Assembly: GCA_907165275.2 (NCBI GenBank)
Contig: OU015678.1
Span: 4,650,001-4,714,000 of the forward strand
DNA from: Zygaena filipendulae
Taxonomy: Eukaryota > Arthropoda > Insecta > Lepidoptera > Zygaenidae
DNA length: 64,000 nucleotides
Reading direction: 5' to 3'
The translations under genes and the position numbers were made by a program. Positions 2,844-55,105 of the stretch are shown here, in pieces (the first letter of the stretch is position 1; each line of letters opens with the position of its first letter). Under the pieces are notes generated by a model. That model was given only the letters and a program-made list of their open reading frames with translations. It was not told where the DNA came from and did not search any database.

Positions 2844-5800
2844 ACCCGGCTGCATTATTTAAATAAATTATAAATGTAATTATTACTTTTATGTTAGGTA
2901 CATTTAAATATTTTAAATATTTGTCAAAAAGGATAAGAAATAATAGATATATCGGGGAAAATAATTATAATTTTCTAACCAACAAGCGTAGTTATTTGAA
3001 AAATTATTTTTATAATCGCTTATGAACGAAATACGAGTTAAATAGGTATAGAGTCAATAAAAATGAACTTACTTTCTGAAAATGAAATCAAAGTAATTTA
3101 TTTTAATAATTTTATTATTGTTTTGTATAGTTAATTAGTACCTATAAGATTATCTACCTTTAGCAATAAGGCCACATTTAACTCTTTCTTTTTATTTGTC
3201 TAATGTTTTGTATCCTGGGACAGTAAAATATATTTGAATTTTAATTTCAGATACATTTTAATGTCATATAAACTAGAATCACAGAAAATATTCTAAATTA
3301 ATTTTAATTTCAGAGACATTTTAGTGTCATATAAACTAGAATCACAGAAAATATTCTAAATATCTACCTACAAGTGTGAAAACATGGAAAAGCCATGCAG
3401 TGTCATGTAGGTATGCGTATATCATGTCGTTCTGAAATCATCTATAGGTACTAATATTATAAAGAGGAAAGATTTGTATTTTTGTTTGTTTGTTACGAAT
3501 TACGATCTAACTCAAAAACTATACGGGACTGATTTCAGAAATTCTTTCACCATTAGAACGCTACATTATCCCTTAGTGAGATGGGCTATATTGTAACCAG
3601 GAACCTTTTATTATATAGTCAGGAACTCCAGCGGGAACTCCGAAATTACCGCGGGTGAAACCGCGGGAAACAGTTAGTACCTACACTACAAGTAGAGCGC
3701 GTTAACGACTATAATAAAAATTAATTATTTAATCATCCATACTGACCGTGGGTGGCTATAAAAGTAACAAGTTAAAATTAATTAATAAATGTAATTAATA
3801 GCAAAAAGGTTAGTCGACATCACAGGAAACCGAAGAGCTGGCAGCTACCTCGGACAAAGAATTAGCCTAGCTATTCAAAGGGGGAACGCTGCCAGTATCT
3901 TCGGAACCTTGCCTAAAGGGACTCCTTTTAATAATATATTTTAGCTTTATTTTAGGTTAGGTTAAGTTTAGTTTTAGTTTATTAACATTTAGAAGTTAGT
4001 TTTATTAATTTTGTGTGTCCAAATGACAGCAGTCATTATAATGGGCATGATGACAAGGTATAAAATATATTTATATTGTATTGCCCTTTCAGGGATTATG
4101 ACATCAATCTTTCTGAATCTGTTCATATTCTTTCCTATCAAATACTTGTTGCTTTTTGTAATTGTCCACTGTTTTCTCTGACTGACATTGGCATGAATAG
4201 TGCGCCTACCTATCCAAGGCGTCTGTTGCCATATTGAAAGAAGAAGGTATAAAATCAAAATTATATTCAGTCTGTCAGTTAGATAATAAAAAGTATAGAT
4301 AATAGACACGACGTACTTTTATCTGTTTCGATTTTATTAAAAAAAATCTTATATAAAACGCATTAAAGTTTAGGAGTTTTTTATTAATCTACAAGACGGA
4401 CTAAAAGTTAAAATTTTGTCATCATGCCCATTATTATGACATGTACATTGTACCATGTACAATTTCATAATTTATATGTATTTATCGCATAGGATAAACG
4501 CATGAAATAATATAAGTAGGAGAAGGTAGTAAGAACGTTTCATTTCTTTTTTTAACGTTTTTAAATCTGGACATGAAAAGCATAGATATGGTCGGATCTC
4601 AACATCAGATCAAACTAAAATACTAAAATATTTAGTATTTTAGTCATTGATACCTACGTCTAGTAGTAAATCAATGATTTTAGTGTTAAAAAGCAGTCTT
4701 GGTGAGATGTTGATATCCGACCACATGCCTTATCTTAGCGTGTTGGGTGCCACTGTGGTGAAGGTGATGAAGACCGTATAGTACTTACATTTGTCTGTCA
4801 ATTAAAACAAAGTAAACAATATCAGAATATAATTAGGTGGGTAATTAAAATATAAAACCGACCAAGGGCGTGTCCACAGAGAAGAGTTCCGTAGTGGAAC
4901 AGAAGTACTTGCAAAAAAAAAGTTGTACGTTACAATAGAACAATAGGAAATATTACTTACATAGTACTATAAAAAAAAAAAACAGAATGTGATTAAATCG
5001 TTTTATAATTTAGTTACGAACAGGGAAATATCTCAAAAAGTAGGGACCTAAAAAATAAATAAATTAACATTAATATAAATAATTACATAAATATCGATAC
5101 TCACCGTAAGCTACCAGAGATAAAGAATATAAATTATAATTAGGCATTATTTTTACAAATTACCAAACAAAGTCCTCCGCTTCGTCTGTCTATCTGTCTG
5201 TCTGTTCGCGATAAACTCAAAAAACTACTGAAGGTATTTTCACCAATAAATAGAGCAATTTGAAAGGAAGGTTCACACGAATATTTGATCCCGAAATTCC
5301 GCGGGAACTCCGAAATCACCGCTGGGGATATCAAGTAGGTATTTAATAAAGGTAAAATATATTGACCCTCTTTAAAAAAAAATAAGGAAGTTCTCAATTC
5401 GGCTTTTGAGCGACTACAATAAAATTCAATGACGATAGGTGAGCGATGAAAAACAAATAACAGGATTCTACGGATTAAATATGAAATTATATTTACGTAT
5501 GACTGAAATTAGAATCAATAATGTAAATTAATATTTTCACATGTTAATTATAAATCAACAAGAACCTACATAAGTTTAATGAGTAGATATACTTAATAAA
5601 ATTTACTCACTTCACTCTGTAAGAAAGTTCACATGAATTATTATTAATATAAAATATTAACATTTAACCCTTAATAGACATACTGGGTCTCCGGGACCCA
5701 GACTCTTTGCGACCGGATAATACTGCTCACTAAAATCGATAAATTTTATGGGTTTTGTGGCGCCATCTAACGATAATTTGGATCTTCAACTTCAGTATCG

Positions 5801-8800
5801 AAACGATAGATTTTGAATCGTTTCATTATTTGCTTTTACATCGCACTTGTGTTCAATTTTAGAAAAAAATATAAGAAAACAAATGGGTATTTATAAGATC
5901 ACGCCAGAATTGCAACCAGTTTTATATTGAAAAGTTGAGATTATTTAATTATTATTTTTATTTATTTATTTTACTCACAATCAGTTGCTACAAACGAAAT
6001 GAATGAAAAAATTATATTACAACTTAGAGAATTCGATATTTTACATACGTAATAAGTAACTACTAAATGGAATTTTAGCAGGTACTTTTGCTTAAAGTTT
6101 AAGATAAAACATATTTGGTTTTGTTTTACTCCAATCACAGAGATAATGCTGGGCATGAAAAGCATAATACGGTCGAATATTTGTGGTATTTTAGTGTTAA
6201 AAAGTAGTTTGGTCGGATGTTGAGATCCCACCATGTAATTTTCATGTCCAGAATGATGGCAATTGAAACTTGAAAAGGTGGGAGTGGAGCGCCATCGCAC
6301 ATTTAAAATCACATCAAGATCATATTCAAAATTAAGCGAGTGGAGCCGCGAGTAACAGCTAGTTTTAATTCATAATTAAAATAACTCACCATCATCTGTA
6401 AAATATAAAGCATTTTTTTATAATATTATCTATACTAATATTATAATATATTGAATGCGTCAGTCTTAGAAACTATTGGTCCGATTTGAAAAATACATTT
6501 ATTGAGGAAGACCATTTATAATTATTATCACGTTACGACTAATAGGAGCGGAGCAGCAATGAAAAACGTTGCAAAACCAAAAAGAAAAATCCTTTTGAGA
6601 GCTTCCATTGTATATGCTGCGTAAATGGTTAGCTATGGAATAGATTTTAGTAACATTTTTCTTCAAATTGACACGGATGAAACGGCGGGGCACAGCTAGT
6701 CGTTAAAATAAAAATTCATTCATAGAAGAAGCTCGATTTTGGACTCAGACTGATGTTTACTTGGTGTTTAACCCAAGCCACCGGGTTTAAGCCCAGCGGT
6801 GGCGCATCTATGGTTGCAAGCATATTGTATAATTCGTTCAATTTTGAACAAGCTGGGCGTTCGACCACAGCCCACTTGATGTTATGTGATGGTGTAGTCG
6901 AAGATTGTGAACACACCTAGCCTAGAATGGAAACTGGTTTTCAAGAGACGCTGCCGAAGCCCAACTTTAAGGTGATCAGCGACAGATTTTCAATTAAAAC
7001 GTGGTAGCTAAGTAGCCAGCCGGGTACTAGAGAGTACCCTACTATCATGTTATGGATGGCACATGATGTTCTTCTTCTCCGACAGCTCAAGCTCATTGGT
7101 AAGGTTTGAACCTAGCATCTAGAGCAAGATCTAAACGCACCAACCTGGGTAAAGTTTGAACTGTGAGCAAGACAGAATGAATGGAAGAAATCTACCGACT
7201 AATCTGGGATACCATATCGCATTTTCTATCCACGGAACTATACAAAGTTCCGAGGACAGATCCCAACAGACAGCTAAATTATAACTAACACAAAAAAGGG
7301 GAGGTAACTTACACTGCCGTCCTGCGTGAAAATAAATCAAATTGAAACAATAACTCCGTAGTTATTTACTTATATAATAAATAAAACATGAAATAGGGTA
7401 CTTGCATGAATTTTTTTTTTCAGTCTATTTTAAAGATATATGGCCTACTTAAACAAAGCAAGAAAAAGAAAAAAAAATATATGCATAAATTAATGAAATA
7501 GAGCGTTTCAAAGTTCCTACTTTAGACCTTACCGCCAAAACGCGGAATGACGTCACTAGTTCAAAATTACGCCTTATTAATCTGTGATAGAAATGTCAAT
7601 GTCGTATTGACAGAGTCTTGTGACACTGACAGACAGATAACTTCAATATCCAAAAGCGAAATTAAGGTTGAACTGTGTCGATTTACTTCCAAAAGTTCCA
7701 GTAAAGAATTGAAATGCATATTACCGATGCATTTTAAAGTAAAAAACTTCAGAAAATGGAAAATATGCGTTGACTGTAAGCACTTAGTTTCTTCTGCCTT
7801 CTCTGAAATAGGCAAATATTTCCTAAAAAAATAAAAGTGACGTTATGTGTCAAGCGTGGCTGTGATTGGTGTTTCGTTGCAACGTTCCGTTTCACAAAAT
7901 TAAAAGTTGAATATTTTGGAAACTATTGAAATTTTTTTAGTAAATCTTTCACGATAACGCTGTAAGGCTCTATTTTTTAAATATTGACACAATTTCTTAT
8001 TATAAATTTCATGCAAGTACCCTATTGTGAAGGGAGACCAACAAATTTTCCAAAAACCTAGAGTGGTTATTTAGCCCTTTCACTGCCATTTCCATGAGAA
8101 AATTAGAGCGAATTACAACTGAGTAAGTGGTCCAGATCCTTTTGTTAGGTTAATCTGACCATGGCCAGTGCTCTGTGTCCAAGACCATCAACCTTTCACC
8201 GCCATCCGCGCAATAACACGATCTACGAAAGACGTACTCCTGGCGCCGGAAACGTAATACTACGTTACAAACAAACCACTGCACTAACTTTTATATTTAT
8301 TAGATTAAAGGGCAGATATTATCTACCTATCTAAGCATTCCCAAAACTAGGAGAAATCATGCATAAAGCGTGTGGTCTAGAGGTAACGCGGCCATGTTTT
8401 TGTTGCCTTAACCTATCAAGGCTACAAAAACGTGGCAGTGAAAGGGTTAGAATAAGAAATATAATATTGCATGTCTGTGTATTTTTATGATACCTATTGC
8501 TACTGCTCCACCTGCGTGTTATCGCGTAAATTAGTGCGCTAATTTAGGCATTAGTACGTAGATGTGGCCAACATTTTAACGGGTTTACTTACTAACATTA
8601 CCATCAAAGTTAACGTTAGACATTAACATCAACGTTAACGTTAGACATTAACATCAACGTTAACGTTAACGCAGGTGGAGCAGTAGCATAACTATTAATC
8701 TGATTGAATAATAACTTTTATATTGCAAATTTCTTACCTTAAGCTAAAATTTTATAATTATTATTTTTTAATAGACGTTATTATGTATTTTATGAACGGA

Positions 8801-10267
8801 AAAGAAAGCAGTTTTAATAAACTTTACCGTAAACTGAAAAATAAAAGTAAAAATATTAGATACTAAACAAGAGATGGCGCCACTAATACTTTTCATGCAA
8901 TTTTTTCATGATTATAAATGTTTTGGGTAACTTTTATCAATTAATAATTTTAATATTTGATAAAACTGTAGGTTTTACTTACATTATACTGTAACAATAA
9001 AAAATTTTAATCGACAGTGAATAAAGCCGTCAATTTACTTTACAAATCAAATCGTCAAATAATTAAGGGGTATAAAATCAAAGGCAGCTAGTTGCAAGTT
9101 TTTTTCAAATTTGGACTTTGAATGCCATTAAATCCATCTCACGATTATCTACGTGTTCCACTTACTACTTGTTATCAAATGCAGATGATAGTCATAGAAA
9201 ACAATGATTGAAAACTACGATTGGAATCAAAATCAGCCTAAAAGTTCTCTGTCAACATCGAAGTTTAAGCTAGAAAAAAGTTTTTTTCGTTTTGTGAACA
9301 ATTCAAGATTGTGCACTTCGCCGCACTCAGAGTCAACTTTAATGATTACTTAGTTAAGTATAGATTTTTAAAACATAACTGCCGCAATCAGACAAGTTTA
9401 ATAAATTGATGTTAATTGACCTTTAACTCATTAAGTTACATCTCATTAAATGCCAATTAACATTAATTTACTCATCGTCTCTGATTGCGGCGGTTTTGTT
9501 TTAAAAATCTATACTTAACTAAGTAATCATTAAAGTCGACTCTGAGTGCGGCCGTTAGCTGCCTTTGATTCTATACCTACCCCTCAATTGCCGTGTTACT
9601 TACTTTCACCTGAATAACAATGATAATCATAATTAATAACATAAAATTAATTAATTAATTAATTTTTAATTTAAATTGAATTTAAATTTTTTAAACAACA
9701 ATAACTCTGCCAAAAAAATATGATAAATCTTACTTCTGTCTGAAAAGTATAAAATAAACGAGTATGTTACACAAAAAGTAGGTCGGTAGGTACCTACTCG
9801 AGTGGGGCCATGTTGACACTATGTGAGTTGACCGAAATATTTTCAGCTCTTTATCACAAACCTCATACTTACTGAGTTGTCTTACAGACAATGATGAGTA
9901 GGTACATATTTTTAACCAACTTCCAAAAAGGAGGTTCTGTGTTCGTGTGTTAACCGCCTTTTTAGAAGTTTTTTTCATATGAAATTTTAAGATAGGCAAA
10001 TTCTTATTTTGGAATTATAGTAGGTAGGTCCCTAATTCCTTTAGAAGTTACGTGGTATTGTATTGACATACTTATACTTTGCTAACTTGATAAAAATTTA
10101 AAGCAGATAGATAGGTACTTACAGTGACCTTTGGAAATAAAATATTCAATGTAATAATCAAAAGAAGATTTTTAATTTTTTTTTAGTTTTTTTTTTGTCA
10201 CAATATTTCTTTTTTTTTTATAAATTCATTATAATTACGTTGATAAATTAATAAAACTTACTGGTTG
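2844..10267 (-). CDS. micro-exon gene, 3' exon group
   Basis: Exons in transcript order: 10262-10267 QP; 10123-10128 VT (AAG acceptor); 9734-9739 TE; 9604-9609 VK; 8983-8988 YN; 8828-8833 FT; 8738-8743 LK; 7313-7321 DGS; 6390-6395 MM; 5979-5987 QLI; 5611-5616 SE; 5497-5502 SY; 5105-5110 LT; 4961-4966 YY; 4789-4794 TN; 3073-3075 K (a 3-nt exon between TTCATTTTCAG and GTAAGTTC); 2844-2849 PG. The joined peptide alternates polar and hydrophobic residues as in beta strands, and YN plus FT makes the sequon N-F-T. No exon carries a stop in phase 0. No further exon was found left of 2844, so the gene should continue outside the window. Confidence 0.65.
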
Positions 10268-13200
10268 CTGTTCGGCATAAAACAAACGCATCGGTATAGA
10301 TAAATTATTAATAACTACTTATAGTAGGTAAATAGAAAATCCGTTTTGAAGATGTAGGTTACTGATACATTTACCTACACACATACATCTAATATATATA
10401 AATCACGTGTCACGTTGTTTGTCCGCGATGGACTCCGAAACTACTGAACGGATTTTGATAAAATTTTGCAACCATTCATAAAATGGTCCAGCTTAAAAGA
10501 TAGGATAGTTTTTATCCCGGAATTCCCTCGGGAACTGAAGGACATGGAGTACTTTTTTCCCGCAACCTCCGCGGGAACTCCGAAATTACCGCGGATGAAA
10601 TCGCGGGGGACAGCTAGTTATATATATAATTTATATTTAACCAAGATGGTCCCCGCGCTTTCACCTGCGTTAATATTGAAAAAATGTGCGGGAATTCCGG
10701 GGTAAAAATTATTATTTTCGTTCCTGTATAATATGTACCCTTTACATCCTCTATGCTAAATTGCGTGATGATTGGTTGTCTATAGTTAAGGAGTGAAAGG
10801 GTAACGAATAGGGTTGCCACCTTTTTTTGGAAAAAATATAGTGTTTTTCCGAAAAAAGATACAAAAATATAGTACTTTTGGAAAATGCAGGGAAAAATGA
10901 TTGAAACTACTTGCATATTTTTTTTAATCATTAAGTATATAGGGCAGCATTTTTGACAGTTGGACGTTTTGTTGCCGCGTACCTATGCATGCGTGGTGCG
11001 TTCCAGACCAGTCACAGCCCATAAAAAGCGCGACAATTGAATTACGGATAAAAATATAGTATTTTTCGTACTATATTATTTTTCTATAATATATGTACCT
11101 ATAGTGCAATTGACTGAAATATAGAACGATATTATATACACACCGGCAGAATTAGCGGAACATAAAAAGGCAGAGTATAGAAATAATAACGTATATATAT
11201 TAAAACAAATAATAATTAGACGTGAAGTAATAAATTAATATACATCTTTTAACACTTTAAAAGTTTGTAATTAAATTATTAAATTTTATTTAAAATAATA
11301 ATAAAAAAAAACACTTTTTCTCTAATTTTTGGGCACACAAATAATGTTGCAAATTAAAGATTACTGTGATTTTAACACTAAATAAATGAACGATTAATAA
11401 CGTGTGTTTCTCCTTCGTGATTCAACTTTTATTTGCAACATTGTCTGTGTTCTCACAAACTAGAGATTTTTTTTTCTTTAATTTTGATTACTTTTAATAA
11501 AATTTAACTAAAAACTTCTGAAAATCGATGTTAAAAGATGTATATTTGTTTATTACTTCATGCCTGATAATAATTTGTTTTAATACATATATGTTATTAT
11601 TTCTATACTCTGCCTTTTTATGTTCCGCTAATTCTGCCGGTGTATATAATATAGTACCTACAGGTGGCAACCCTAGTAACGAACTACTTTTTAGATACTT
11701 TCAATGATTATTATTGTCGTTTTATTTCAACCAGTTTACAAAAAACCTTAACCTTCCCACAGATAATATAATACTAGACCTCAGACCTTCCTCGTGAATC
11801 AATATATGTATTGATTTGGCGAAAACCGCATGAGAATCCGTTTAGTAGTTTTTGAGTTTATCGCGAACAGACAGACAGGCAGACGGTGGGAAAGATTTTG
11901 TTTTATAATAGGTAAGTATGTAGTGATAAACTTACGCCCTTTATCTGAAAAAATTATGTTATTTTTAAAAGCATTGTAATATGATTTATGTAGTTAATCG
12001 AATATAAAGTAGGCAGGTATCTAATCTTATGTTTATGTAGAATTTATAAAATTCCCCGCTGTTCCACCCGCGTTAATTTCGGAGCTCCCGCGGGAATCCC
12101 GGATGATAAGTGCCCTATGTCCTTCTCTGCACCCTTGACAACGTGTAGGTACCTATATAAAATTTCGTGATGATCGGTTGAGCCGTAAAGGTGTGAAAGC
12201 GTAACCAACAAACTTACTTTCGCATTTATTATACCTATTAGTAAGGATTTGACTTACATGACGTGATCCCGAATTCCCGAATACGCCATTTACAGATGCG
12301 GTACCATGAAAATTAAAACAATAGTTTAATGACCCTAATAAAACCAGACATATACTTAGACTTATAGGTTGTAGGAAAATTGTATAATACCTATTGGGCA
12401 GGTGTATAAATTTTTACGAAGCCATAATTCAATAAAGTAAAAGACTTACATAGAAATCCTGAAATCATTTAAATTTGGCAGATATAGATATTATACAATA
12501 AGTAGTAATATTTCTTAACATTAAATTAAATTAAAACAAAACCTGTAATCGAGGGTTTTTTTTATAAACTTTATATCTAGTGCTTTGGGTTTTTGGACAG
12601 TTTTTAGTCTAGATTAATGCTGTTTTTTCTAGATTTATGTCTTAACTAAAGAAAGGCAGGCTTAGGGACACTTAAAAAAAATTAAGAATATCTTTAATTA
12701 AATTTTACCTAACCAAAGATTAAGGTCCGTATTTCAGAAGGTTACCCAAGTCATGAATCTAGTTTTAAAACTAATTTTAGAACCTTACTTGAAACGAGAT
12801 TCATCAATCAACAATCAGCTGAGTTATTTCCTTATTCTAGAACGACGCTTGAGTACTAATCTATACTCAAGCAAAGATTTGGCGTCTGTCATGTCAAGAC
12901 CACTCAACCAATCAGAGCTCAAAATCTCTACTCAAGACTAGTTTCAAGTGATTAGAACCAATCAGAGTTCAGAATCTCTACTCAAGACTAGTTTCAAGTG
13001 ATTAGAACTTAAAACGCATTCTATAATAAGATGTACGCTCGAGTTATGATCTGAGCTTAAATCTAATCTCAAGTGAAACGTGATCTGAGTCACCTTGTGG
13101 AATACGGACCTAAATGGATATTCTAATTTGACAAAACGATGGTAGCAAATTTGTTAATAATATAGATAATATAGAGATATATTTTGATACATTTAGTTTA

Positions 13201-19200: not shown

Positions 19201-22200
19201 CTACTTTTCTTAATTAAAACACTCTTCATGTTTTTTCGTAGAGCATCCGTATGATGCCGTGACGGAAAATTAATTTTTACTCCCATCCGTACCGTGCGAT
19301 AAAGAACTCCGTTCGTTTACCTAAATAAAGTACCCACACCATTGATATAACTTATGTAGAACTAGCTGTGTGTGTGTATGTAGTTCCCTGCGGTTCCTCC
19401 TGCGGAAATTCCGGAGATCCTGCGGCATTTATGGGATACAAAATATCTACTGGATGTCCTTTTCTGTACCCCTGACAACTCGTTTCCAAAATTTCATGAG
19501 ATTTCACTGGAGTTAATATCGGAGTTCCCGCGAGAATTCCGGGAATAAAAGTACCCTATGTCCTTCTCTGTACCTGCTACACTGCTACGAGAGTAGAACG
19601 CCGTATTGCTACGGTGCTACGAGACTATAACGCCATAATGCTACGGTGTTACGAGAGTATAACGCCGTAATGCTACGCCATTGCGTCGGTACGACATAAC
19701 GGCCGCACTCAGAGCCAACTTTAATGATTACTTAGTTAAGTATAGATTTTTAAAACAAAATTGCCGCAATCAGAGACGTTCAGTAAATTAATGTTAATTG
19801 GCATTTAATGAGATGTAACTTAATAAGTTAAATGCCAATTAACGTTATTTTATTAAACTTGTCTGATTGCGGCAGTTTGTTTTAAAAATCTATACTTAAC
19901 TAAGTAATCATTAAAGTCGACTCTGAGTGCGGCGGTAAGACAAATACTACCTACTTTATGTGCAATGATGACAATAGGGATGTGGACTACTTTTGAAAAT
20001 CAAAATTCTAATTAGTCCGTCAGTTAGAAAATAAAAAAACAATAGACACGTATTTTTTGCTTTTTCCAATAAATTAAAATATACAGAGATAAAGCGCATT
20101 AAAGTTTAGAGTGAGGGGGTCGTGACGTCACTAACCGCTAAAACCGCCATACAAACTGTCTAAATAGTGACGTCACGCGAAATTTCAACTCAATATATCG
20201 CCGTTATTTTTTGATTAAGTAAAAAAAGAAAAAATACGTGTCCAATATTTTTTAATAATCTACAAGACGGACTAAAAAATAAAAATTAGTCAACATGCCT
20301 ATTATTATATACCTAGAACATAGGCTAATTATGCTTACCCCTTCAGGTTTGTGCTCTTCTGTGCCATTCTAGAATTGAAGTAAAATAACATTATAATTTT
20401 TAGGCATACTTCTTTGTTTTAAGTTTATTTTATGTTTGAAGAAAAGTAACCGAGTTTTAAATCGACTGTATACCTAGATATTTAAGACCCTGTTGGCATG
20501 TACTGTTACTTTATTTTGATAAACGATAAAATATTTATTAACTAGCTGTGCCCCGCTGTTTCACCCGTGGTAATTTCGGAGTTCCCGCGGGAATTCCGGG
20601 ATAAAAAGTACCGTATGTCCTTCTCTGTACCCCTGAAAACGTGCATGCCAAATTTCATCCAAATCCGTTCAGCCGTTTTTGCGTGATTGAGATAAGAGCT
20701 CGAAAGCGCATTTTCATCCGACTTGCTTCAAATTTATAGTCACTGCTCAGCTCCTATGTATCTTAGCGTTATGTTATATAGCCTATAACTTGCCCAGGAG
20801 TATGGACAACAATCGTACCAAGTTTGGTTAATCCCTTCCGTAGTTTTTGACCCATGCGTGCACATACAGATAGACAGACAGACAGACCGACAGACAAAAA
20901 ATTTACTGATTGCATTTTTGGCATCAGTATCGATCACCATTCATCCTCCAATATTATTAATTTTGAATATATATTCAATGTACAGAATTGACCTCTACAG
21001 TTTTATTATAAGTATAGATATAAAGTATAAACCACACCAAAACTAAACCAAGTATAAGTAAACTACGTTTGCTTGGTTTCCACGATACAAGCTTATGGCT
21101 TAGTGTGGGATCAAGTAGTTAGATCTGTGTTGTGAAGTGGATTATAAAAAAAAATATAAAATTAATATCTTACCTCAGTCTTCTGCGTGAACAAAGTCAA
21201 TACAGTCATCATTAAGTAGAGTTGTTTTTTTATTTCTCTAATGTACTGACACGTCAGGTCTACAGTATATTTTTTTCTTCTAATAAAAAAACTCAACAAG
21301 AAAGAAAGATGTTAAATATGTAGTTACGTACTTCTCCACTTTCGGGTTTCTGTAAGAATAAATTAATTTATTATAAATATGGCTTCATTTTTATTTAAAA
21401 ATTATTATTGACTGTTAAAAAAGCTAAACTTACAGCCTCCCCACCGTCAGCCCCTTCATGCTGAAATAATTAAAAGAATTTCAACACCTAAAATAGTTAT
21501 TCATCCTACTATTATATAAATGTGAAAGAGTGGATGTTTGGATGTTTAGATGTTTGGATGTTTGTACTCAATCATGCAAAAACGGCTGAACGGATTTAGA
21601 TGAAACTTGGCATGCACGTTGTCAGGGGTACAGAGAAGGACATAGGGTACTTATTATCCCGGAATTCCAGCGGGAATTCCGAAATTACCGCAGGTGAAAC
21701 CACGGGGCACAGCTAGTATAATAATAAATAACAGATTTTTTTTACCGCTTCGCCATCCTGTTAAAACATTGAATAAATTTGTAAAGTAACAATTCATTTA
21801 TGTTTTAGCTAAATAAATATTTTGGTCAGCAACTAAATTTGATGGTTAGCAATAAATAAATTAAGATTGTACCGACACGTCTTGTACCGAAATTATGAAT
21901 GAATTGCTCTATTCAATTACTATTTTTTGCTCTCCTAATTTATAAGTAGGTAAGATCATTAAAAGACCTGCAGAGTTTCTTGTCAGTTCTTCTCAGTAGA
22001 GGACGTATTCCGAACTGACGGTAATTTATAGTTCTAAGAACCAGCTGACGATTATAAGCGATTGTAACAACCAATCCAAACTAGTAAATGACTTTTGAAT
22101 TCGAATTTAAATTAAACACTAATTTTATTACGAAATACAGAGTAGGTACACTCCGACGTGCTAAGCTAGGTTATTTTTGTACTTGTTGTAAACCAATAAA

Positions 22201-25200
22201 CGCGAGCCGAGCGAGCGCAACGAGCGCACCACGGTATAGTGACCGGCGATGCCCCAAAAACTTTGCCTTTTTAAGCTTACTATAAATTTAGTAGCATAAA
22301 AACTTAAATCTTAAAAAAAAAAAATCTATATTAAAATCACTCACCGCTGGCTTTTCCTGCAGGAATTAAACAAAAATTACTAATTAATAACTTTAAACAT
22401 AATATTCTAATTGTCTAATTTCAAAATTCTAATTAGTCCGTCAGTTAGAAAATAATAAAATAATAGACTAGTATTTTTTTGCTTTTCAAATCAATGGAAA
22501 TAAACGTAGATAAAGCGCATTAAAGTTTATGGTGGGGGACTCGTGACGTCATTATTCGGTATAGGTAGATAAGCCCCGTACAAACTGCACCGGGTTGTGG
22601 CGTCACGCGTTTCAACTCAATGCATCGCCAATATTTTATTGATTGCGTAAAAAAAAATTGAAAATACGTGTGTCCAATATTTTTTATTAATCTACACGAC
22701 GGACTAAAAAAAAATTGTCAAGAAGCTAACTGTGTAAAGTAGGTATTTAGGTAATAAATACCTACTGATGGTTTTGGTTGACTTAACTGAACCTCACTTA
22801 AAGTGATGATGAATAACACAACCAATGAGTATACTCACTTCACCACCTCCCTATATAAAACGATAAATACTTACAATTATGAATGCGAATGTAAGTTTAT
22901 TTTTTTGTTTGTTTGTTACGCTTTCACGCCTTAACGGCTCGACTGATCTGCATGAAATTTTGCATACCTATAGGTAGGTACACGTTGTCGAAGATGGACA
23001 TCGGGTACTTTTTATCTTAGTATTCCCGCGGGAACTCCAAAATTAACGCGGGTGGAGCCGCGGAGAACAGCTTGTGGGTATAAATTTTTCTCGCAACGAT
23101 GTATTTATTTTTTATTTCAATACTGCAAATAGATAATGATGACGATTTAGTGCTCAGACAAACCAAAAACTTAAAACTAAAATTCTCGATATAAAAAAGC
23201 GCGCGATTGCTGGGGGTGAATAACCTTTAGGTATTTTACGACCAAACAACAATGTACCGTAAAGTAGAAATTAAAAAAACGTTACCTCTGCAGGTTCCTG
23301 TAAGTATAAATTATCACAGGAAAATAACATAGAACTTTTATGATGTTAATGCTGCATATTTATGTTTAGTTCAATAATACAATGCTCCACGGGGCCTCGT
23401 AAAATAATAAAAAATAATAGATAGGTAAGTACATCTACTCAATTAAGTGTGAGAGAAACCCTATAGCCCCATAGGGCGTCTCGCATACTATCTGTGTGTT
23501 ACTTTAGCTTCACTTAAAAAAAAACATAGTTTAAAATTTCAACGATGCATACCATAGAGCAAATAAATTAACTAGAGAGGACATGTGCGGGGCGCGCGCT
23601 AGCGTTGTAAACATGCAAAAGAAGTCAGAGCAAATGCTCTAACTTGCCCCAAAACTTCTTTTGCTGCCATCCCAAGTATATTTATCACAATATTCCCAAA
23701 ACGGTAAATTTTGAAAACAGGTAGGTAACCAAAAAGCGTTTAATACATTTGTTTACGTTAATGAATGTTTTAGTGCGTGATGAATAGTTTTGTGTGCGAA
23801 AATCACCCGGCGACACTGGTTTTCATCTGTTTTCATACCTACTAAACTAAGTTGATGTCCATTCTATCTGTAATTTACTGTTCTGTGACGCACACTCAAA
23901 AACTCAAAATTACAAATTACAATGGGCAAAATTTCGATAATTATGATTTTATAACTTTACGTAGACGGACGCAGCGCCAACCACAAAGTTAGTATTTTCG
24001 TAAACCTAATATTTTAAAACTATATACAACGTGTTAATGAATTAACTGAAAACTAAAAAGTAGTTTGCTCAGACTAGCGAATCGATCACACTGTATTTTA
24101 AAATTTCTTTTATTTATTTATTTATTAATATAGGTTATATTTTTTAATTTTTACTAGCCCATGTCTAAATTATTTATAATACAATATTTGGCGCGTACGC
24201 CGCCCGCAGCAAAAAAATCGACCCGGTAGGCGCGGGCGTAGCGCTTGGAATTTCGTAGATAGGTCACCTCCAAACTAATGTTGAATAACTTTTAAAGTAT
24301 AAATTTTTTCGACATAAAATATATTTTAATCATATTATTGTTTGTTTTTTTAAATGGGGTGTATCAGGTTTTCAGTTAATTCATTAACACGTTGTATAGA
24401 TAGGTAGTTATGAATTTCGGGACACACTTGATAACTCTAAAAAGTAGGTAAGTACCTATATCCTATATGAAACTCAGGAATAATGGAGTTATTCGTCAAC
24501 TCGCACGTATCAAACTCGTGAGTGCGCGCGAGTTGGCACCTTCCGTTTTTACCTATTTTTTTTGTCGTCAACTCGCTTGTACATATAAAGTACAGTCAGA
24601 TAAAGCTTGAAACTAAAAACTATAAATATATTGTCCACGCTAGCCGCTGATTCGGATAAGTAGGTTCAGTAATAATTTAGATGATAATAAGCGAAATGCT
24701 GCAATCACATATTGTGATATTATTGTTATGTGTAGTTATTTGTTCAGATTATATTATAGAGATTAGATAGTTTAACATCTTCCACATTGCACAAAATCAT
24801 GTGATAAACCCATCGATCTCATAATTATAAAAAGTAGATACACAGTCAGCGTCAAAAAATGTTCTACTGAAATAAGCACCCACTTGAACATTTGGGTGCG
24901 CTTTTAAATACCTTGTCCTACAGTGTCGAAACTCGGTGATAAAATTTTATTTTATATATAATATTATTATTTATATTTAATTTATGATCATACCAACTAT
25001 AACCACAGCTATAACTACGTAAACACGACTGTGGACAGTTTTTAAGTGAACTTTAGTATGGGACTGTGTATCTACTTTTTACACGCTTTTTATTAGCTTC
25101 AGACGTATGTTAGTATGTAACGAAATCTTTGAACATAATTTTGACCCCTTCAAAACGTCGGATTAACTTGAAATTTGACAAACTTATAAGGGCCGATGAA

Positions 25201-28200
25201 AATTAAATATTTTAAACAGTTTGACCCGTTAAACGTACTAGGATAATCAGGATTAGCGATTTTTTTTTTGTTTTCCTGAGACCCGGAGTGTCTGCGTCAA
25301 GACCAATAAGGGAAACTACCAGGCACGATAGTTTAAAAAATTAAAAAATAAACTAAAAAGTAGAATAAATAATAGTTTAAAAAAACTTTAAACACGCTTT
25401 TTATAGAAAACCAAACTAAAAAGGAGAAAATAAATTTTAATAAATTTGAATTCAGAATAGTGTATAAATTTTTTTTTAATATAAACTAATAAAATTTTAA
25501 TAAATAAAAAAGTGGGGATTTTTAAGATATTATTGAAATTCTAATCCTTCTACTCATATCTGTCATTAAAATATTTATAACAATTGACACCACGCACCCC
25601 ACGCTTTTTTTTAAATATTTTTTTTTTTATTTACAATATTGTTAATTTATATTTATTAAAATTTTTATACACTATTCTTAATTCAAATTTATTAAAATTT
25701 ATTTTTTACTTTTTAGTTTGATTTTCTATAAAAAGCTTGTTTTTTAGTTTTTTTAATTAACTTTAAGAGATCGATGGATAAACCAAAATCTCGAGTCATT
25801 GTAAATTTGTTGATTATTGGGTAAATAATATTATTGTTATGTTGATTTGTATTATACATAAAATATCTATCTCGAAAACGATAAGTATTATGTTTTATTT
25901 TAAAGTCAAGTCGTATAAAATTTTTATACATTTAAAGTGGGTTCCTGCCTTAATAATATATACCTTATGTGTATTAATTTTCAAAAATGACTCTTAACTA
26001 ACTAGCTGACTCTACTCATTTTCACGGTTGAGCGAGTTAACGACAGAAAAAGTAGGTAAAAACGGAAGGTGCTTACTCGCGCACACGCACGAGTTTGACA
26101 TGTGCGAGTTGATTATTCCAATCAGTGAAAGAACCCTTAAAATCAATTCAGTAGTTCTAGAGATTACTACAACATCTAAACTTACAAAATATAGGTACAA
26201 ACTTATTTGAACGACTTACATCTTGCTGTTACATAAAAAAAATTACATGAAAAGGATTCACAAATGCTATTTTTTCTTACTCTAAATAGATAATTTATCA
26301 AACCACCAAACCATATAAGTTTTTTTTTTATGTCATAGGGGGCAAACGGGCAAGTGATGGTAAGTGATTGCCGCCGCCCATAGACATCTGCAACACCAGA
26401 AGGTGTAGGCGCATTGCCGGCCTGGAATGGGGATGGGAACTGGCTTTCAAGTGGGGCTGCCGGAACACACCGTCAGGTGCTTGGCGACAGATTTGCAACT
26501 CGAAGGCGGTAGCTAGCCAGCCGGGCACTAGAGAGCGGCCTACCGCCATGCTATGGTTTCCTCACGATGTTTATGTAATTCACCAAACATTTCATTATTA
26601 TCAGAAAGATAAATCTACCTAGGTAATACTTACTACTTATAAATGAGCAATATCTAGGTATATAGGCACCTACAAGAATTGATAATAATTGGACGCAGAT
26701 AAGCAATAACATGTTAACCCACAAAATTAAGTTATTGATTCAGAACGATTTATTGAGAGTTAGGGAACGTTTTTTAATTATGTGTTCACCTTATTACATT
26801 GCTTAAATATGTAACTAAATATTGAACATAAAAAATGTTGACACAAAATGGCGCTCCTACTTTTAAAACACGATTTACTCAAAATTTCTTCAGTGTGGGT
26901 TAACACACTATTGCTTATCTATGTCCAATTTATCTAATCTGAATCTCGGAAACGGCTCCAACGATTTTCATGAAATTTAGTAGGTACCTATGCAAGGGGT
27001 TTTGGGGGCGATTAATAGACCTAGCTAGGTTTCATTTTTAGAAAACGTCGTTTTGTCTTCACAACAGATGGCGCTACGAACGAAGCTCGGTCACCCAGAT
27101 ATTGTGTAATTAATTATTATCGTGTCTAAAAACTGGAATCACATTATGACTTCCAGAGTGGCGTACAAAGCTTTACCTAAATTAATCAATTTTGTTCTAT
27201 TTACCGGCTGGAAAAAGAAAACAGTAAAAAAATCAGTTGGTACCTTTCCATCAAAACACTTGTTTTGTATATATTTTTACATTTCCACTTACGACTGGCA
27301 CCGTGTTTATAACGGCAAAGGAGATCAATGACAGAAGACCGATTATCCAAAGATGCATTCTGAAATAAAATATGTACCTATGTAATATGTATAGGATGTA
27401 TTTATTTAGTGAAATGTACAGGCCCGGATCTACGTGGGAGAAGTGGGTGCACTCCCCCTCTCTCCCCTAATCTGATACTAACTAAGTACATGCCGATATA
27501 AAAAATGTAAACTCATTTAACGTATTTAAAAACATTGTCACAATATGTTTTAAGTAGTGATTATATTATGATCTTTGATTATTATACGTTAATGAGATTC
27601 CTACCCATTACTAATGTGACGACTTTGTTTTAGACTTTTATTAATATTCTCATGTAAGCGATTTTTATCTTTTTTGAGAATAAATTCTTCTTTAAACTTA
27701 ATCAGACCTTAGAAAAATCTCTGATCATCCTGTTAAATGTTGTTATTCTAAAAATTGCGTGGTGAAATCATTATTCCCCCAGACAACCAAAGTCTAGGTC
27801 TGTCGTGACTCGTGATAGCATAGTCTTTTGATTTGGATTATCTATATGGTAAGTATATACTATAGCTGTGCCCTGCGGTATCCCCCACGCGAGTTTCGGA
27901 ATTCCCGCAGGATCCATTACAAAATAAAAGTACCCTAAGTTACTCCGTATAACATTATGCAGCTATCTGCCAGTGAAAGTTCCGTTAAAATCAGTGCAGC
28001 CGTTTCAGAGATTAGCCGGAAAAAACAACAGGCACAAAAATAAAAAAATAAATTATTCACCTATAAGTACCTACATTCATTTATGTATTTGGTGAAAAGC
28101 TGTTAATTTAGGATTACAACCAGACACTTCAATTTTGTTTAGTTATAGTTATATAACCTATAGAATATAGAACGTTTATTAAAGTTGGTTTAATTTTTTC

Positions 28201-29099
28201 TAAAAATTTAGTTTATTAAATTTTTAAATAACTCACCTGTTTTCACTTACACACATGAAAAATCAATATTATACTTAGGTAGGTATTGAAAATAAATATT
28301 TCAGTGGATATTTTTCGGATAGCTGCAGTAGTGCCTATTTTATATGAAAATAAAGTTTATCACACTCGAATAAGTATGCAGTTGGTAGGTATTGTGTTAA
28401 GATAAAAATAAGTATAAATAAAATATTTTTTTTACTAGAAGCTAGTGTGTAGGTACATTGAAAATATTGAACTGGAAGGAAAATGCAATCATTTTACTGT
28501 CACTGATACAATGTCTGTATGTTTGCACGTTCATCACACAAAACCAGCCAAGTTTGAGTCGGACTTCGCGCATTTAGAGTTCCGTACCAAATGTAGAATA
28601 GGGCAGTTTCCGGGGTATGTAAATCAAATTCTATTTAGTCCGTCCGCGTCAGTTAGATAACAAAAAAATCTTGACGTCATATCGTGTTAAAAACTGCAGC
28701 ACGGCGTGACGTCACGCGACATTTCGACTTAATGTAGATACCTACGTATCTCCGTTATTTTATCCTTAGGTACCTACTTACCTACGTAAAAAAAAAACGT
28801 CCAATATTTTTTGTTAATCTACAAAACGGACTAACAACTAAAATTTGGTTGACAAGCCCACTCTAGAATTCCAAAGAAGATCATAGAGTTATCAAATTTT
28901 TGGTATTTGTTGGTAAAATATACTAGTGCGTAGATAAAAATAATTATTTTCACCAAGTTTTAAGTTCATATCTATAGGTCAACGGCAAGTTGGAAAATAC
29001 TTCTGTATAATATTTTGTAAAAAAAAAGCTGACTTTGGCGGCTTCTCATGCGTTTGTTTTTTGATATTTTTAAAAACAAAAAATACTTACATCTTTCAT
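2844..29099 (-). CDS. micro-exon gene, putative secreted glycoprotein
   Basis: I do not recognise the family. About 38 minus-strand segments of 3-33 nt are each bounded by a pyrimidine-rich tract plus YAG (AAG in two) and a GT donor, usually GTAAGT or GTGAGT. Every one is divisible by 3 and open in phase 0, so they join without frame correction. In transcript order there is an acidic E/G/K/P/A-rich part (29099 to 20339), an N/T-rich part (18895 to 16606), then a mixed, globular-looking part (15900 to 2844). The joined frame contains five N-X-T sequons, two created only by joining exons, which suggests a secreted or extracellular product. No signal peptide was found. Introns of about 0.1-3 kb are filled with MITEs and Helitrons. 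The 3' end lies left of the window. Individual exons are listed in the three following entries. RNA evidence is needed for any single exon, but the ensemble is hard to explain by chance. Confidence 0.7.
3237..3362 (+). repeat. 63-bp tandem duplication
   Basis: Two nearly identical copies begin at TTAATTTCAG (3241 and 3304). They differ by a few substitutions, so the duplication is recent. It lies in an intron of the micro-exon gene. Confidence 0.9.
3451..3676 (+). mobile_element. Helitron-like element
   Basis: It opens ACTAATATTATAAAGAGG and ends in the hairpin CCGCGGGTGAAACCGCGGG followed by an AGTTAGT variant of the usual CTAGT terminus. Confidence 0.75.
3800..3975 (+). pseudogene. LINE ORF2 C-terminal remnant
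   Basis: The plus-strand frame from 3838 reads SYLGQRISLAIQRGNAAS, then a GTLPKGTP motif, then a stop at about 3945. This resembles the C-terminal tail of a lepidopteran non-LTR reverse transcriptase ORF. A T-rich 3' trailer follows. Only the tail remains. Confidence 0.6.
4036..4438 (+). mobile_element. MITE family C, copy 1
   Basis: The terminal inverted repeat is TAATGGGCATGATGAC on the left and its inverse at 4420. The internal blocks ACGCATTAAAGTTTAGGAG and CTACAAGACGGACTAAAA mark the family. This copy lacks the usual TGACGTCA pair. Confidence 0.75.
4566..4735 (+). mobile_element. MITE family M, copy 1
   Basis: The termini are CTGGACATGAAAAGCATA with GGTCGGATCTCAACAT, inverted at the right as ATGTTGATATCCGACC. 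Related copies lie at 6149-6252 and 45853-46065. Confidence 0.7.
5180..5340 (+). mobile_element. Helitron-like fragment
   Basis: It contains CTGTCTGTCTGTTCGCG, AAACTACTGAAGG and the AATTCCGCGGGAACTCCGAA block, but the 3' CTAGT end has been lost. Confidence 0.55.
5663..5710 (+). other. TTAA-flanked hairpin, possible piggyBac-like end
   Basis: TTAACCCTTAATAGACATA is followed by a perfect hairpin, TGGGTCTCCGGGACCCA. TTAA followed by CCC is typical of piggyBac-type ends, but no matching right end was found. Confidence 0.3.
6149..6252 (+). mobile_element. MITE family M, copy 2
   Basis: A short copy from GGGCATGAAAAGCATAATA to TTTTCATGTCC. It keeps the TTTTAGTGTTAAAAAGTAG segment. Confidence 0.65.
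6730..7065 (-). repeat. old copy of the family F retro-repeat
   Basis: It shares the order of blocks with 26310-26575 (CTGCCGAAGCCC, GCGACAGATTT, GTGGTAGCTAAGTAGCCAG, GGTACTAGAGAG) but is strongly diverged. Confidence 0.55.
7394..8026 (+). mobile_element. MITE family A, copy 1 (full length)
   Basis: The terminal inverted repeat AATAGGGTACTTGCATGAA ends as TTCATGCAAGTACCCTATT. The approximately 630-bp interior includes AATGACGTCACTAG and a pair of opposed 82-95 codon ORFs that overlap each other and show no domain. Copies 2 and 3 flank the Ufc1 upstream region (33407-34108 and 34455-35087). Confidence 0.8.
8075..8446 (+). mobile_element. piggyBac-like MITE
   Basis: The perfect terminal inverted repeat CCCTTTCACTGCCA / TGGCAGTGAAAGGG is flanked by TTAG on both sides, a variant of the TTAA target. 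It has no coding capacity. Confidence 0.65.
8498..8688 (+). mobile_element. MITE family E, copy 2 (internally deleted)
   Basis: It keeps both ends (TGCTACTGCTCCACCTGCG and its inverse) and has lost most of the interior. A 25-bp unit with GTTAGACATTAACATCAAC is tandemly repeated at 8615-8664. Confidence 0.8.
9066..9593 (+). mobile_element. MITE with nested palindromic MITE
   Basis: The outer ends AGGGGTATAAAATCAAAGG and CCTTTGATTCTATACCTACC are inverted. The element is interrupted by family B copy 1. Exon VK of the micro-exon gene begins 11 bp to its right. Confidence 0.65.
9321..9551. mobile_element. MITE family B, copy 1
   Basis: An almost complete palindrome: CCGCACTCAGAGTCAACTTT runs inward and its inverse closes the element at 9551. 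The arms are about 110 bp. Copies 2 and 3 are at 19703-19932 and 44250-44479. Confidence 0.9.
10391..10618 (+). mobile_element. Helitron-like element, subfamily 2
   Basis: The 5' end TCTAATATATATAAATCACG differs from the main family, but the 3' end has the same hairpin and CAGCTAG/T. Sister copies are at 30331-30555 (minus) and 59335-59540 (plus). Confidence 0.8.
10645..10808 (-). mobile_element. Helitron-like copy split by a hAT element
   Basis: A minus-strand copy from CCAAGATGGTCCCCGCGC to GAAAGGGTAACGAA. Its continuation resumes at 11676, after the hAT element. Confidence 0.65.
10809..11675. mobile_element. hAT-type non-autonomous element
   Basis: The terminal inverted repeat is TAGGGTTGCCACC / GGTGGCAACCCTA. 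An exact 8-bp target duplication, GTAACGAA, lies at 10801-10808 and 11676-11683. An 8-bp duplication and TAGGG ends are typical of hAT elements. A second foldback element is inserted within it. Confidence 0.88.
11130..11655. mobile_element. long foldback element nested in hAT
   Basis: CACCGGCAGAATTAGCGGAA with ATAAAAAGGCAGAGTATAG is mirrored at 11595-11645. The complementary arms extend over 100 bp each and surround a loop of about 250 bp. Confidence 0.85.
11936..18325 (-). CDS. micro-exon gene, middle exon group
   Basis: Exons in transcript order: 18305-18325 ENSTTTE (very strong acceptor with an unbroken T run); 18083-18088 LP; 17223-17228 LN; 16750-16758 END; 16606-16611 TI; 15895-15900 PE; 14726-14731 NV; 13904-13909 RT (AAG acceptor after a T-rich tract); 12450-12458 DFY; 11936-11944 IKG. 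From 18083 on, exons shrink to 6 or 9 nt. Joining END to TI creates the sequon N-D-T. Weaker alternatives that would add residues in frame are 17283-17288 (RL), 16889-16900 (TLRT) and 13648-13653 (LS). I left them out because their splice sites are poorer. Confidence 0.65.
12053..12247 (-). mobile_element. Helitron-like element
   Basis: A minus-strand copy from CCCCGCTGTTCCACCCGCG to ATACCTATTAGTAAGGA, nearly complete but without a clear CTAG terminus. Confidence 0.7.
12723..13111. mobile_element. MITE with internal 56-bp duplication
   Basis: The ends AGGTCCGTATTTCAGAAGG and GTGGAATACGGACCT are inverted. Inside, a block beginning GAACCAATCAGAG is duplicated in tandem (about 12898-13008). Confidence 0.75.
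13560..13725. other. GC-rich unique patch
   Basis: This is an isolated CpG-rich stretch (CGCCGCCGCCACCGCTGCGC, then CGCACGGCGCGCGCGCCC) in an otherwise AT-rich intron of the micro-exon gene. It has no repeat signature and no convincing exon. It could be an enhancer or promoter, or an old insertion. Confidence 0.4.
14050..14160 (+). repeat. LINE/SINE 3' tail
   Basis: GTTTATGCTCAATAAAGTATA with a polyadenylation-like AATAAA is followed by a run of ACAA repeats, the usual 3' end of a retro-inserted element. Confidence 0.55.
14165..14632 (+). mobile_element. MITE family C, copy 2 (carries an insertion)
   Basis: The ends are CTATTTGACTAATTTTT and TTTTGTCAAATAGCC. It keeps one TGACGTCA. About 150 bp of unrelated sequence (14237-14390) interrupts the left half. 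Confidence 0.75.
14826..15315. mobile_element. TIR element with minisatellite and retro-insert
   Basis: The ends AGGCCTTTTGCACATTATAAG and TTACAATGTTCACAAGGCCT are roughly inverted. An 18-bp unit, TTATAAGACATTTC plus four bases, is repeated at 14956-15022. A LINE/SINE 3' end (15022-15193, closing in AATAAATAAATAAATAAA) is inserted in the middle. Confidence 0.65.
15506..15868 (+). mobile_element. Helitron-like element
   Basis: Full length: TCCTACTAATATTACAAACG, a GGATGGATGGATGG microsatellite, then the GGAATTCCCGCGGGAACTC block, hairpin and CACAACTAG/T. Confidence 0.85.
17470..17785 (-). mobile_element. MITE family C, copy 3
   Basis: It contains GTCTTGTAGGTTAATAAAAAA, GTGACGTCACGCCG and CCTAAACTTTAATGCG in reverse order relative to copy 2. 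The right end GAAACAAGCCTG differs from other copies. Confidence 0.7.
18470..18720. mobile_element. MITE C remnant joined to a Helitron fragment
   Basis: A truncated family C body (18470-18605, one TGACGTCA) abuts a minus Helitron fragment with CAAAATTTCATGATCG and AATAATATTAAGGA. Confidence 0.6.
18863..29099 (-). CDS. micro-exon gene, 5' exon group (acidic)
   Basis: Exons in transcript order: 29091-29099 MKD (possible first coding exon; its acceptor context is weak, so it may be preceded only by 5'UTR); 26220-26225 QD; 23286-23297 EPAE; 22839-22850 GGGE; 22345-22356 EKPA; 21746-21757 DGEA; 21434-21460 HEGADGGEA; 21332-21349 KPESGE; 21174-21182 KTE; 20339-20368 NGTEEHKPEG; 18863-18895 GEAGNTTDASG. 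Donors are mostly GTAAGT or GTGAGT. GTAAAA (21746), GTACGT (21332), GTAACG (23286), GTAAGA (21174) and GTAAGC (20339) also occur. The acidic, low-complexity composition is unlike the surrounding AT-rich DNA, and this is the strongest single sign that the segments are coding. This region holds the longest exons. Confidence 0.72.
19363..19562 (-). mobile_element. two Helitron-like fragments
   Basis: The copies start at ACTAGCTGTGTGTGTG (19363) and at TTTCACTGGAGTTAATATCGG (19503). Both are truncated within the TGTCCTTCTCTGTACC segment. Confidence 0.6.
19573..19680 (+). repeat. 32-bp minisatellite, 3 copies
   Basis: The unit contains GCTACGAGAGTATAACGCC and repeats three times with a few substitutions. 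Confidence 0.85.
19703..19932. mobile_element. MITE family B, copy 2
   Basis: Same size and near-complete palindrome as 9321-9551. It opens CCGCACTCAGAGCCAACTTT. Confidence 0.9.
19975..20312 (+). mobile_element. MITE family C, copy 4
   Basis: The termini AATAGGGATGTGGACTACTT and AAATTAGTCAACATGCC are inverted. Two TGACGTCA sites lie about 36 bp apart (20131 and 20167). Confidence 0.85.
20543..21010 (-). mobile_element. Helitron-like element, long subfamily
   Basis: It begins ACTAGCTGTGCCCCGCTG and continues past the usual end through AGACAGACAGACAG and TTGGCATCAGTATCGATCACC. The same extended form occurs at 56396-56880. Confidence 0.8.
21507..21716 (+). mobile_element. Helitron-like element
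   Basis: Complete: TCCTACTATTATATAAATG to CACAGCTAG/T. It has the GGATGTTTGGATGTTT microsatellite. It lies in the intron between exons DGEA and HEGADGGEA. Confidence 0.85.
21950..22115 (+). repeat. LINE/SINE 3' end
   Basis: CAGAGTTTCTTGTCAGTTC, GAGGACGTATTCCGAACTG and a terminal TTTGAATTCGAATTTAAA run. The second copy at 63205-63395 ends in TTTGAAC repeats, as expected for a microsatellite-tailed retro-element. Confidence 0.65.
22415..22735 (+). mobile_element. MITE family C, copy 5
   Basis: It carries AGTCCGTCAGTTAG, one intact TGACGTCA and a second site decayed to TGGCGTCA. The right tip is TTGTCAAGAAGC. Confidence 0.8.
22865..23072 (+). mobile_element. Helitron-like element
   Basis: It runs from TACAATTATGAATGCGAATG to GCCGCGGAGAACAGCTTGT and has the GTATTCCCGCGGGAACTCC block. 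It lies between micro-exons EPAE and GGGE. Confidence 0.75.
24026..24395. mobile_element. MITE with 28-bp TIR
   Basis: CAACGTGTTAATGAATTAAC is inverted at the right end, GTTAATTCATTAACACGTTG. TA dinucleotides on both sides suggest a TA target. A diverged copy opens the window. Confidence 0.85.
24490..26120. mobile_element. 1.6-kb element with about 85-bp TIRs
   Basis: The left arm (24492-24580: CGTCAACTCGCACGTATC, then GCACCTTCCGTTTTTACC) returns inverted at 26034-26118. A second inverted pair lies inside (about 25395-25500 and 25640-25740). No transposase frame is visible, so it is non-autonomous. Confidence 0.7.
26310..26575 (-). repeat. retro-repeat family F, copy
   Basis: On the minus strand it ends in CCCCTATGACATAAAAAAA, a poly-A end that sets the orientation. 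The body has GGCAGCCCCACTTGAAAGCC. A plus-strand copy lies in BORCS5 intron 1. Confidence 0.75.
26690..26937. mobile_element. MITE family G, copy 1
   Basis: The ends TGGACGCAGATAAGCAATAA and TATTGCTTATCTATGTCCA are inverted, with GTTAACCCACA / TGTGGGTTAAC inside. Other copies: 49317-49552 and 59725-59966. Confidence 0.9.
26938..27115 (-). mobile_element. repeat shared with 49690-50015
   Basis: It shares CTCGGAAACGGCTCCAACG, the GGGGCGATTAAT block and AAAACGTCGTTTT with the second locus. It is probably a Helitron-like subfamily. The 69-codon ORF at 27122 lies just outside it and has no recognised domain. Confidence 0.5.
27863..28035 (-). mobile_element. Helitron-like fragment
   Basis: It starts ATAGCTGTGCCCTGCGG and ends in GTTTCAGAGATTAGCCGG, a form also seen at 29365-29560. 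Confidence 0.65.
28615..28862 (+). mobile_element. MITE family C, copy 6 (shortened)
   Basis: It has AGTCCGTCCGCGTCAGTTAG, a single TGACGTCACGCG and CTACAAAACGGACTAAC. The middle is deleted. Confidence 0.75.
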
Positions 29100-54896: not shown

Positions 54897-55105
54897 ACCA
54901 TGTACCATATCTCCTCCTCCAAAAGTACCATATCTCCTCCTCCAAAAGTACCATATCTCCTCCTCCAAAAGTACCATATCTCCTCCTCCAAAAGTACCAT
55001 ATCTCCTCCTCCAAAAGTACCATATCTCCTCCTCCAAAAGTACCATATCTCCTCCTCCAAAAGTACCATATCTCATCCTCCAAAAGTACCATTTATCTCC
55101 TCCTC
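54897..55105. repeat. 23-bp polypyrimidine minisatellite, about 9 copies
   Basis: The unit contains CCATATCTCCTCCTCCAAAA. Because 23 is not a multiple of 3, open frames through it in several phases give the same peptide repeats; this is not a gene. Confidence 0.95.

Follow-up and report, generated by a model that had tools for sequence, protein, structure and literature searches.

We found that the minus strand of a 64,000-nucleotide stretch of lepidopteran DNA (the window, that is, the whole stretch analyzed; C29:4650001-4714000) almost certainly harbors a real coding gene divided into micro-exons. Its architecture (a signal-peptide exon, approximately 33 micro-exons, a short terminal exon and introns that are all in phase 0) also appears very probable, and the product is quite likely a small secreted protein of approximately 159 amino acids. 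We read the gene as intact, in phase 0 throughout and situated between UFC1 and a gene of the fatty-acyl-CoA reductase type, and the sequence would be best explained if the gene extended over the minus strand between about 29.1 or 27.4 kb at its 5' end and about 0.85 kb at its 3' end.

Length, phase and composition of the candidate exons

We analyzed the window together with 50 kb of flank on each side and, as control material beyond the flanks, five 10-kb stretches from elsewhere in the genome (366 Mb in 56 contigs). Under a bare rule (YAG-N(3-33)-GTRAGT, no pyrimidine filter), the minus strand of positions 2844-29099 contained 26 pairs of splice-like sites, which fell into length classes 0/1/2 modulo 3 as 23/1/2, versus 13 pairs (6/4/3) on the plus strand. 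The original prediction had held that pairs off a multiple of three are few on this strand, and the counts by strand and length class, run as it had set out, did not refute it. Across the whole window, the corresponding numbers were 41 (29/5/7) on the minus strand versus 27 (10/9/8) on the plus strand. When at least 9 pyrimidines in 15 were demanded, 23 pairs were left on the minus strand of the region, of which 22 were in class 0 and one in class 2.

A strict rule that was not trained on the region (YAG with 9 or more pyrimidines in 14, 3-36 nt, GTRAGT) gave 22 candidates on the same strand. All 22 were divisible by three and 21 were free of stops, as originally claimed for these micro-exons; the sole candidate with a stop, 26634-26669, was dropped. 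None of the 22 lay in repeats (sequence repeated within the sequence examined), though repeats cover 40.4% of the region. Applied to 399 kb of controls (the plus strand of 164 kb, the minus-strand flanks and both strands of the five 10-kb loci), the strict rule gave 36 pairs (17/5/14 by length modulo 3), of which eight were stop-free members of class 0, and 0.53 such pairs are thus expected per 26.3 kb. Similarly, 300 first-order Markov sequences contained on average 0.56 in-phase, stop-free candidates and at most four, compared with the 21 observed.

We also trained a weight matrix on 21 seed exons from the region. At a score of at least 14, pairs on the minus strand of the region were distributed 32/7/5 by length modulo 3 (four of the 32 with a stop), whereas 137 kb of minus strand beyond the region gave 4/7/8; several of the seven and five pairs off a multiple of three combined a real exon's acceptor with a different donor. 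Joined, the 21 strict, stop-free exons and the exon PG stay open over 71 codons in frame 0, whereas the other frames have 6 and 13 stops; given the local frequency of stops, the probability of 71 codons in a row without one was 0.005. The GC content of these exons was 44%, versus 30% in the repeat-free sequence of the region, and 13 of the 71 codons encoded Asp or Glu, versus a background of 4.9%. Exon duplication was considered as an origin of the array and rejected: windows of 40 nt to either side of the exons in a 31-exon set resembled one another no more than randomly drawn repeat-free windows did (best score 35, reached by 14 of 60 random sets).

Gene model and predicted product

The model comprises 35 coding exons (480 nt, 159 amino acids) and 34 introns of 84-3369 nt (median 464). 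It contains 33 micro-exons of 3-33 nt with a mean of 10.2 nt, in place of the approximately 38 first proposed: two of 3 nt, 17 of 6 nt, five of 9 nt, three of 12 nt, two of 18 nt, and one each of 21, 27, 30 and 33 nt, with 21 consecutive exons of at most 9 nt. By tier, 21 are strict and 12 are second tier (P, DGEA, KPESGE, KTE, NGTEEHKPEG, ENSTTTE, NV, QP, VT, TE, SY and PG). The latter, for which divisibility by three and freedom from stops were conditions of acceptance, therefore add nothing to the phase statistic; the least strong among them are NV, SY, DGEA and P. Together, both tiers form one open frame.

The gene likely starts with the signal-peptide exon MHLWIIGLLSLISFAVINTVPV (27293-27358, 66 nt, phase 0), whose acceptor precedes the ATG by a single base and whose donor is gtaagtgg, and not with the ATG at 29099 as originally placed. 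The start at 29099, ATGAAAGAT before the strong donor gtaagtat (29091-29099, donor score 11.0), carries no signal peptide and lies upstream of the better start; if that stretch is used at all, it more probably belongs to a 5' UTR exon. We scanned for phase-0 open reading frames of 42 to about 130 nt that run from an ATG to GTRAGT and include a hydrophobic stretch; the signal peptide was called by hydropathy and not by a trained predictor. The exon at 27293-27358 was the only match on the gene strand, and the 399.5 kb of controls contained one match. A DNA search of the moth's own genome with this exon matched only its own locus. A rival signal-like open reading frame from 26712 was rejected, being in phase 1 and inside a repeat.

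Proceeding downstream on the minus strand (exons are strict unless marked otherwise), the signal-peptide exon is followed by the 3-nt exon P (27205-27207; second tier, donor gtaaat), the 6-nt exon QD (26220-26225) and the 12-nt exons GGGE (22839-22850), EKPA (22345-22356) and DGEA (21746-21757; second tier, donor gtaaaa, abutting a repeat). The longer exons are found next, namely HEGADGGEA (27 nt, 21434-21460), KPESGE (18 nt, 21332-21349; second tier, donor gtacgt), the 9-nt KTE (21174-21182; second tier, donor gtaaga), NGTEEHKPEG (30 nt, 20339-20368; second tier, donor gtaagc), GEAGNTTDASG (33 nt, 18863-18895), ENSTTTE (21 nt, 18305-18325; second tier, donor gtaata) and NIETAL (18 nt, 18198-18215).

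From there on, the micro-exons are of 9 nt or less. LP (18083-18088) and LN (17223-17228), each of 6 nt, precede the 9-nt exon END (16750-16758), the 6-nt exons TI (16606-16611) and NV (14726-14731; second tier, weak, donor gtatgt) and the 9-nt exon IKG (11936-11944). Three second-tier exons of 6 nt are then modeled in succession: QP with a weak tract (10262-10267), VT with an AAG acceptor and a strong donor (10123-10128) and TE with the donor gtaaga (9734-9739). The 6-nt exons VK (9604-9609) and YN (8983-8988), the 9-nt DGS (7313-7321), the 6-nt MM (6390-6395), the 9-nt QLI (5979-5987) and the 6-nt SE (5611-5616) are all strict and lead to the 6-nt SY (5497-5502; second tier, weak, donor gtaaat). 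The last micro-exons are LT (5105-5110), YY (4961-4966) and TN (4789-4794), of 6 nt each, the 3-nt K (3073-3075) and the 6-nt PG (2844-2849), which is second tier by its tract and has a strong donor. Candidates RT at 13904, RKQNMY at 13279, LK at 8738, DFY at 12450 and PPT at 3747 were dropped for weak or AAG sites, and SLTRSTCS at 3685 and 498-584 for being wholly or partly repeat.

The gene had been thought to end at 2844, but it probably continues to a terminal exon at 846-923 (78 nt), CMCLTRAPISKFKLIGNIHFSRIKV plus stop, which lies outside repeats. Ahead of the convergent gene downstream, only two acceptors reach a score of 9: that at 923 (13.0) opens 25 codons and a stop, and its rival at 1045 (10.6), which was rejected, opens directly onto TAA. 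We found no AATAAA or ATTAAA from the proposed terminal exon (846) to -192.

The 159-residue model consists of the signal peptide, a 61-residue acidic stretch rich in Gly and Glu (pI 4.1) and a 76-residue, mildly basic C-terminal part (pI 8.7). We searched with the MKD-start model or its C-terminal half in some cases and with the signal-peptide start in others. The joined protein gave only sub-cut-off matches in Pfam (TipE, E 3.5 and 0.86; YbgT, 0.31), and the C-terminal half gave one chance-level match in the PDB, to a poxvirus Bcl-2-like protein (E 0.96). In the protein database, none of 2266 word-sharing candidates reached E <= 10 with the MKD-start or C-terminal-half query, nor did any of 30 with the signal-peptide-start query. 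The joined peptide returned no homolog in these searches. Of the acidic tract and globular-looking part originally described, the former stands, and the term globular is unsupported since no match in Pfam, the PDB or the protein database exceeded chance. As a guess, the product may be a gland or epithelial secretion.

Splicing mode, alternative readings and comparison with known systems

Strand, splice sites, length rule, phase, freedom from stops, composition and repeat avoidance are seen directly in the sequence; the mode of splicing is inferred. With micro-exons of, for example, 6 nt, the factors that recognize one splice site would leave no space for those at the other, and splicing would therefore proceed by intron definition, intron by intron. 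Once a 6-nt exon is joined, a strong 5' splice site would be recreated (upstream exon, 6 nt and GTRAGT) and used next, and every step of such a ratchet would add 1-11 codons. In the 31-exon set, 15 of the 17 exons measuring 3-6 nt had a GTRAGT donor although 3 of the 17 ended in G; this strength is partly a selection effect, as strong donors helped to find the exons. The pattern places the splice information in the intron and fits the stepwise model, and we consider stepwise, intron-defined splicing rather likely. Branch-point-like motifs were inconsistent across the modeled micro-exons. Passages of PMC8378409 state that micro-exons of 3-27 nt are thought to need intron definition and propose that PRP-40 aids it, and intron definition plus recursive splicing is proposed for a 1-nt exon in part of PMC4674806.

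Because the micro-exons are symmetric and in phase 0, the reading frame would survive skipping of any one of them, and many variants of one secreted protein could result; the same argument, that symmetry permits skipping, is made for fluke micro-exon genes (MEGs) in a passage of PMC4350168. Combinatorial skipping is a possibility toward which we lean slightly less than away from it. There is an even chance that the gene is real but makes a single fixed protein, all of its micro-exons being spliced in constitutively, and that phase 0 throughout is a trace of intron gain rather than serving exon skipping. The single open frame made by the strict and second-tier exons is in line with this reading, as are the lack of any direct sign of alternative exons and the 6-nt and 1-nt exons described as constitutive in part of PMC4674806, but 22 symmetric phase-0 exons out of 22 exceed what a single fixed mRNA needs.

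A recently broken gene, with exons surviving as remnants after loss of expression, is improbable. Introns rich in transposable elements (the 40.4% of repeats) and the failure to find a homolog in Pfam or the protein database would suit it, whereas every strict splice site is intact, the 71 codons run without a stop and no strict exon contains a repeat.

Ratchet points in long insect introns, which PMC4674806 cites, consist of a 3' splice site followed closely by a strong 5' splice site, which implies stepwise intron removal, and leave nothing in the mRNA. The candidate exons share this anatomy (tract, YAG, a few bases, GTRAGT). If the array were a series of such zero-nucleotide recursive sites in one long intron, the short stretches would be absent from the mRNA, whereas the 3-33 coding nucleotides modeled between the sites would stay in it. 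The reading as ratchet points is very unlikely: it gives no reason for stretches of 3-33 nt to be divisible by three and stop-free in one phase, and the zero-nucleotide pattern was unmatched in 29.1-0.9 kb. We did observe one zero-nucleotide splice-like site that this pattern missed, at 28782 (pyrimidine tract, TAG, GTAAGT); it lies inside a dispersed repeat (28540-28867), so copies of that repeat elsewhere may carry ratchet-like sites. Chance pairing of splice-like motifs in AT-rich DNA does occur, as the 36 pairs in the controls attest, but has a negligible probability here, given 21 in-phase, stop-free candidates against 0.53 or 0.56 expected and a maximum of four in 300 Markov sequences.

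As modeled, the coding micro-exon gene that we favor takes to an extreme a layout already described in blood flukes and aphids. The part of PMC4671649 dealing with schistosome MEGs describes a signal-peptide exon, symmetric exons of less than 36 nt and a small product predicted to be secreted, and part of PMC4350168 states that MEGs seem confined to platyhelminths. The present gene resembles them in the signal peptide of its 5' exon (27293-27358, by hydropathy), its small, predicted-secreted product and a central coding part made mostly of symmetric exons of less than 36 nt (22 of 22 strict candidates divisible by three). It differs in having 33 micro-exons in one gene, 17 of them of 6 nt and all in phase 0. 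MEGs have two long flanking exons, and here a 66-nt signal exon and a 78-nt terminal exon are proposed, as coding parts only. Furthermore, MEG variants come from micro-exon skipping, which symmetry would permit here. The protein had no hit in Pfam or the protein database that would indicate kinship with a MEG family, and the likeness is one of layout, to the MEGs as described.

As for aphid bicycle genes, passages of PMC9168663 report internal exons almost all in phase 2 (phase 0 counts against a gene in the classifier), CYC motifs, an average of about 17 exons, putative secreted effectors as products and one bicycle-related gene with more than 100 micro-exons. The likeness to bicycle genes originally drawn holds for the large number of very short internal exons that share a phase (33 here, mean 10.2 nt), but not for the phase itself (0 versus 2) or the motif, as the 159-residue model contains no CYC and one CMC; the 35 exons also exceed the bicycle average. 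More broadly, a lepidopteran system comparable to MEGs and bicycle genes, possibly encoding an effector, a secretion or a structural protein, had been envisaged. The MEG layout and probable secretion, via the signal-peptide exon, survive from that proposal; a lepidopteran setting is plausible from the genome size, the neighbors and the types of repeat, and the effector role is unsupported, no relative having been found in Pfam, the PDB or the protein database. Isolated micro-exons in flies, worms, vertebrates and plants, as the sources describe them in part, number one or two per gene, whereas nearly all coding sequence here is micro-exonic; adjacent pairs occur, for example in rice, according to a passage of PMC8831610.

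Tentatively, at slightly less than even probability, we regard the gene as an independent, probably lepidopteran origin of an extreme MEG architecture, with mostly two-codon exons (17 of 6 nt, two of 3 nt), an obligatory stepwise ratchet and very many in-frame isoforms. Should the gene have an origin separate from those of fluke MEGs and aphid bicycle genes, this layout would have arisen one more time in a secreted protein, and one could ask why such proteins come to have it. Within 3-9 nt there is no space for enhancers, nor for spliceosome components at both ends simultaneously. A gene with 21 consecutive exons of at most 9 nt would offer a natural system in which to probe intron definition and stepwise splicing at the smallest exon sizes. 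Tiny exons tend to escape both gene finders and ordinary RNA-seq mapping, and similar genes may therefore be overlooked in many genomes.

Occurrence in the genome and neighboring sequence

A tight 6-nt-exon pattern had 35 matches genome-wide, one of them at this gene, versus 88 for its reversed control. WNTNWTNYAG-N6-GTRAGT had 501 matches versus 576 reversed, and by that measure tiny exons are no general feature of the genome. TNTNWTNCAG-N6-GTAAGT had 59 matches versus 41 reversed, and across all 59 places the only same-strand pair less than 714 kb apart was formed by two exons of the micro-exon gene. These results are evidence, though not proof, that the locus is single in the genome, as the patterns demand 6-nt exons and good tracts and a paralogue with other lengths or weaker tracts would escape them. 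Among the papers listed by searches of the open-licence PMC literature, none concerned a lepidopteran gene with a micro-exon array; a moth paper (PMC4007636) mentions a micro-exon only by citation, in troponin.

Upstream of the micro-exon gene and on the same (minus) strand lies UFC1 (Pfam E 6e-31), whose last exon and stop are near 30.9-30.8 kb. Downstream, a convergent plus-strand gene ending near window coordinate -1813 encodes the C-terminal domain of fatty-acyl-CoA reductases (Pfam Sterile, E 5.4e-25). Reductase-like plus-strand open reading frames were seen from -8795 to -1813 (L005) and near -49, -40 and -18 kb, two of them confirmed by Pfam (NAD_binding_4, Sterile) and the remaining ones judged by eye, which suggests a tandem cluster of fatty-acyl-CoA reductases on the plus strand.

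Elsewhere in the window, positions 42260-43254 hold a GC-rich tandem repeat with 8.9 copies of a 112-bp unit (98% matches; 112 is not a multiple of three). Stop-to-stop open reading frames suggest that the unit reproduces the final part of a coding sequence (RHAERLARVHEAAHQLARCGALLSQ). Two shorter tandem arrays were observed at 41006-41223 (22-bp unit, 10 copies) and 54902-55105 (23-bp unit, 8.8 copies).
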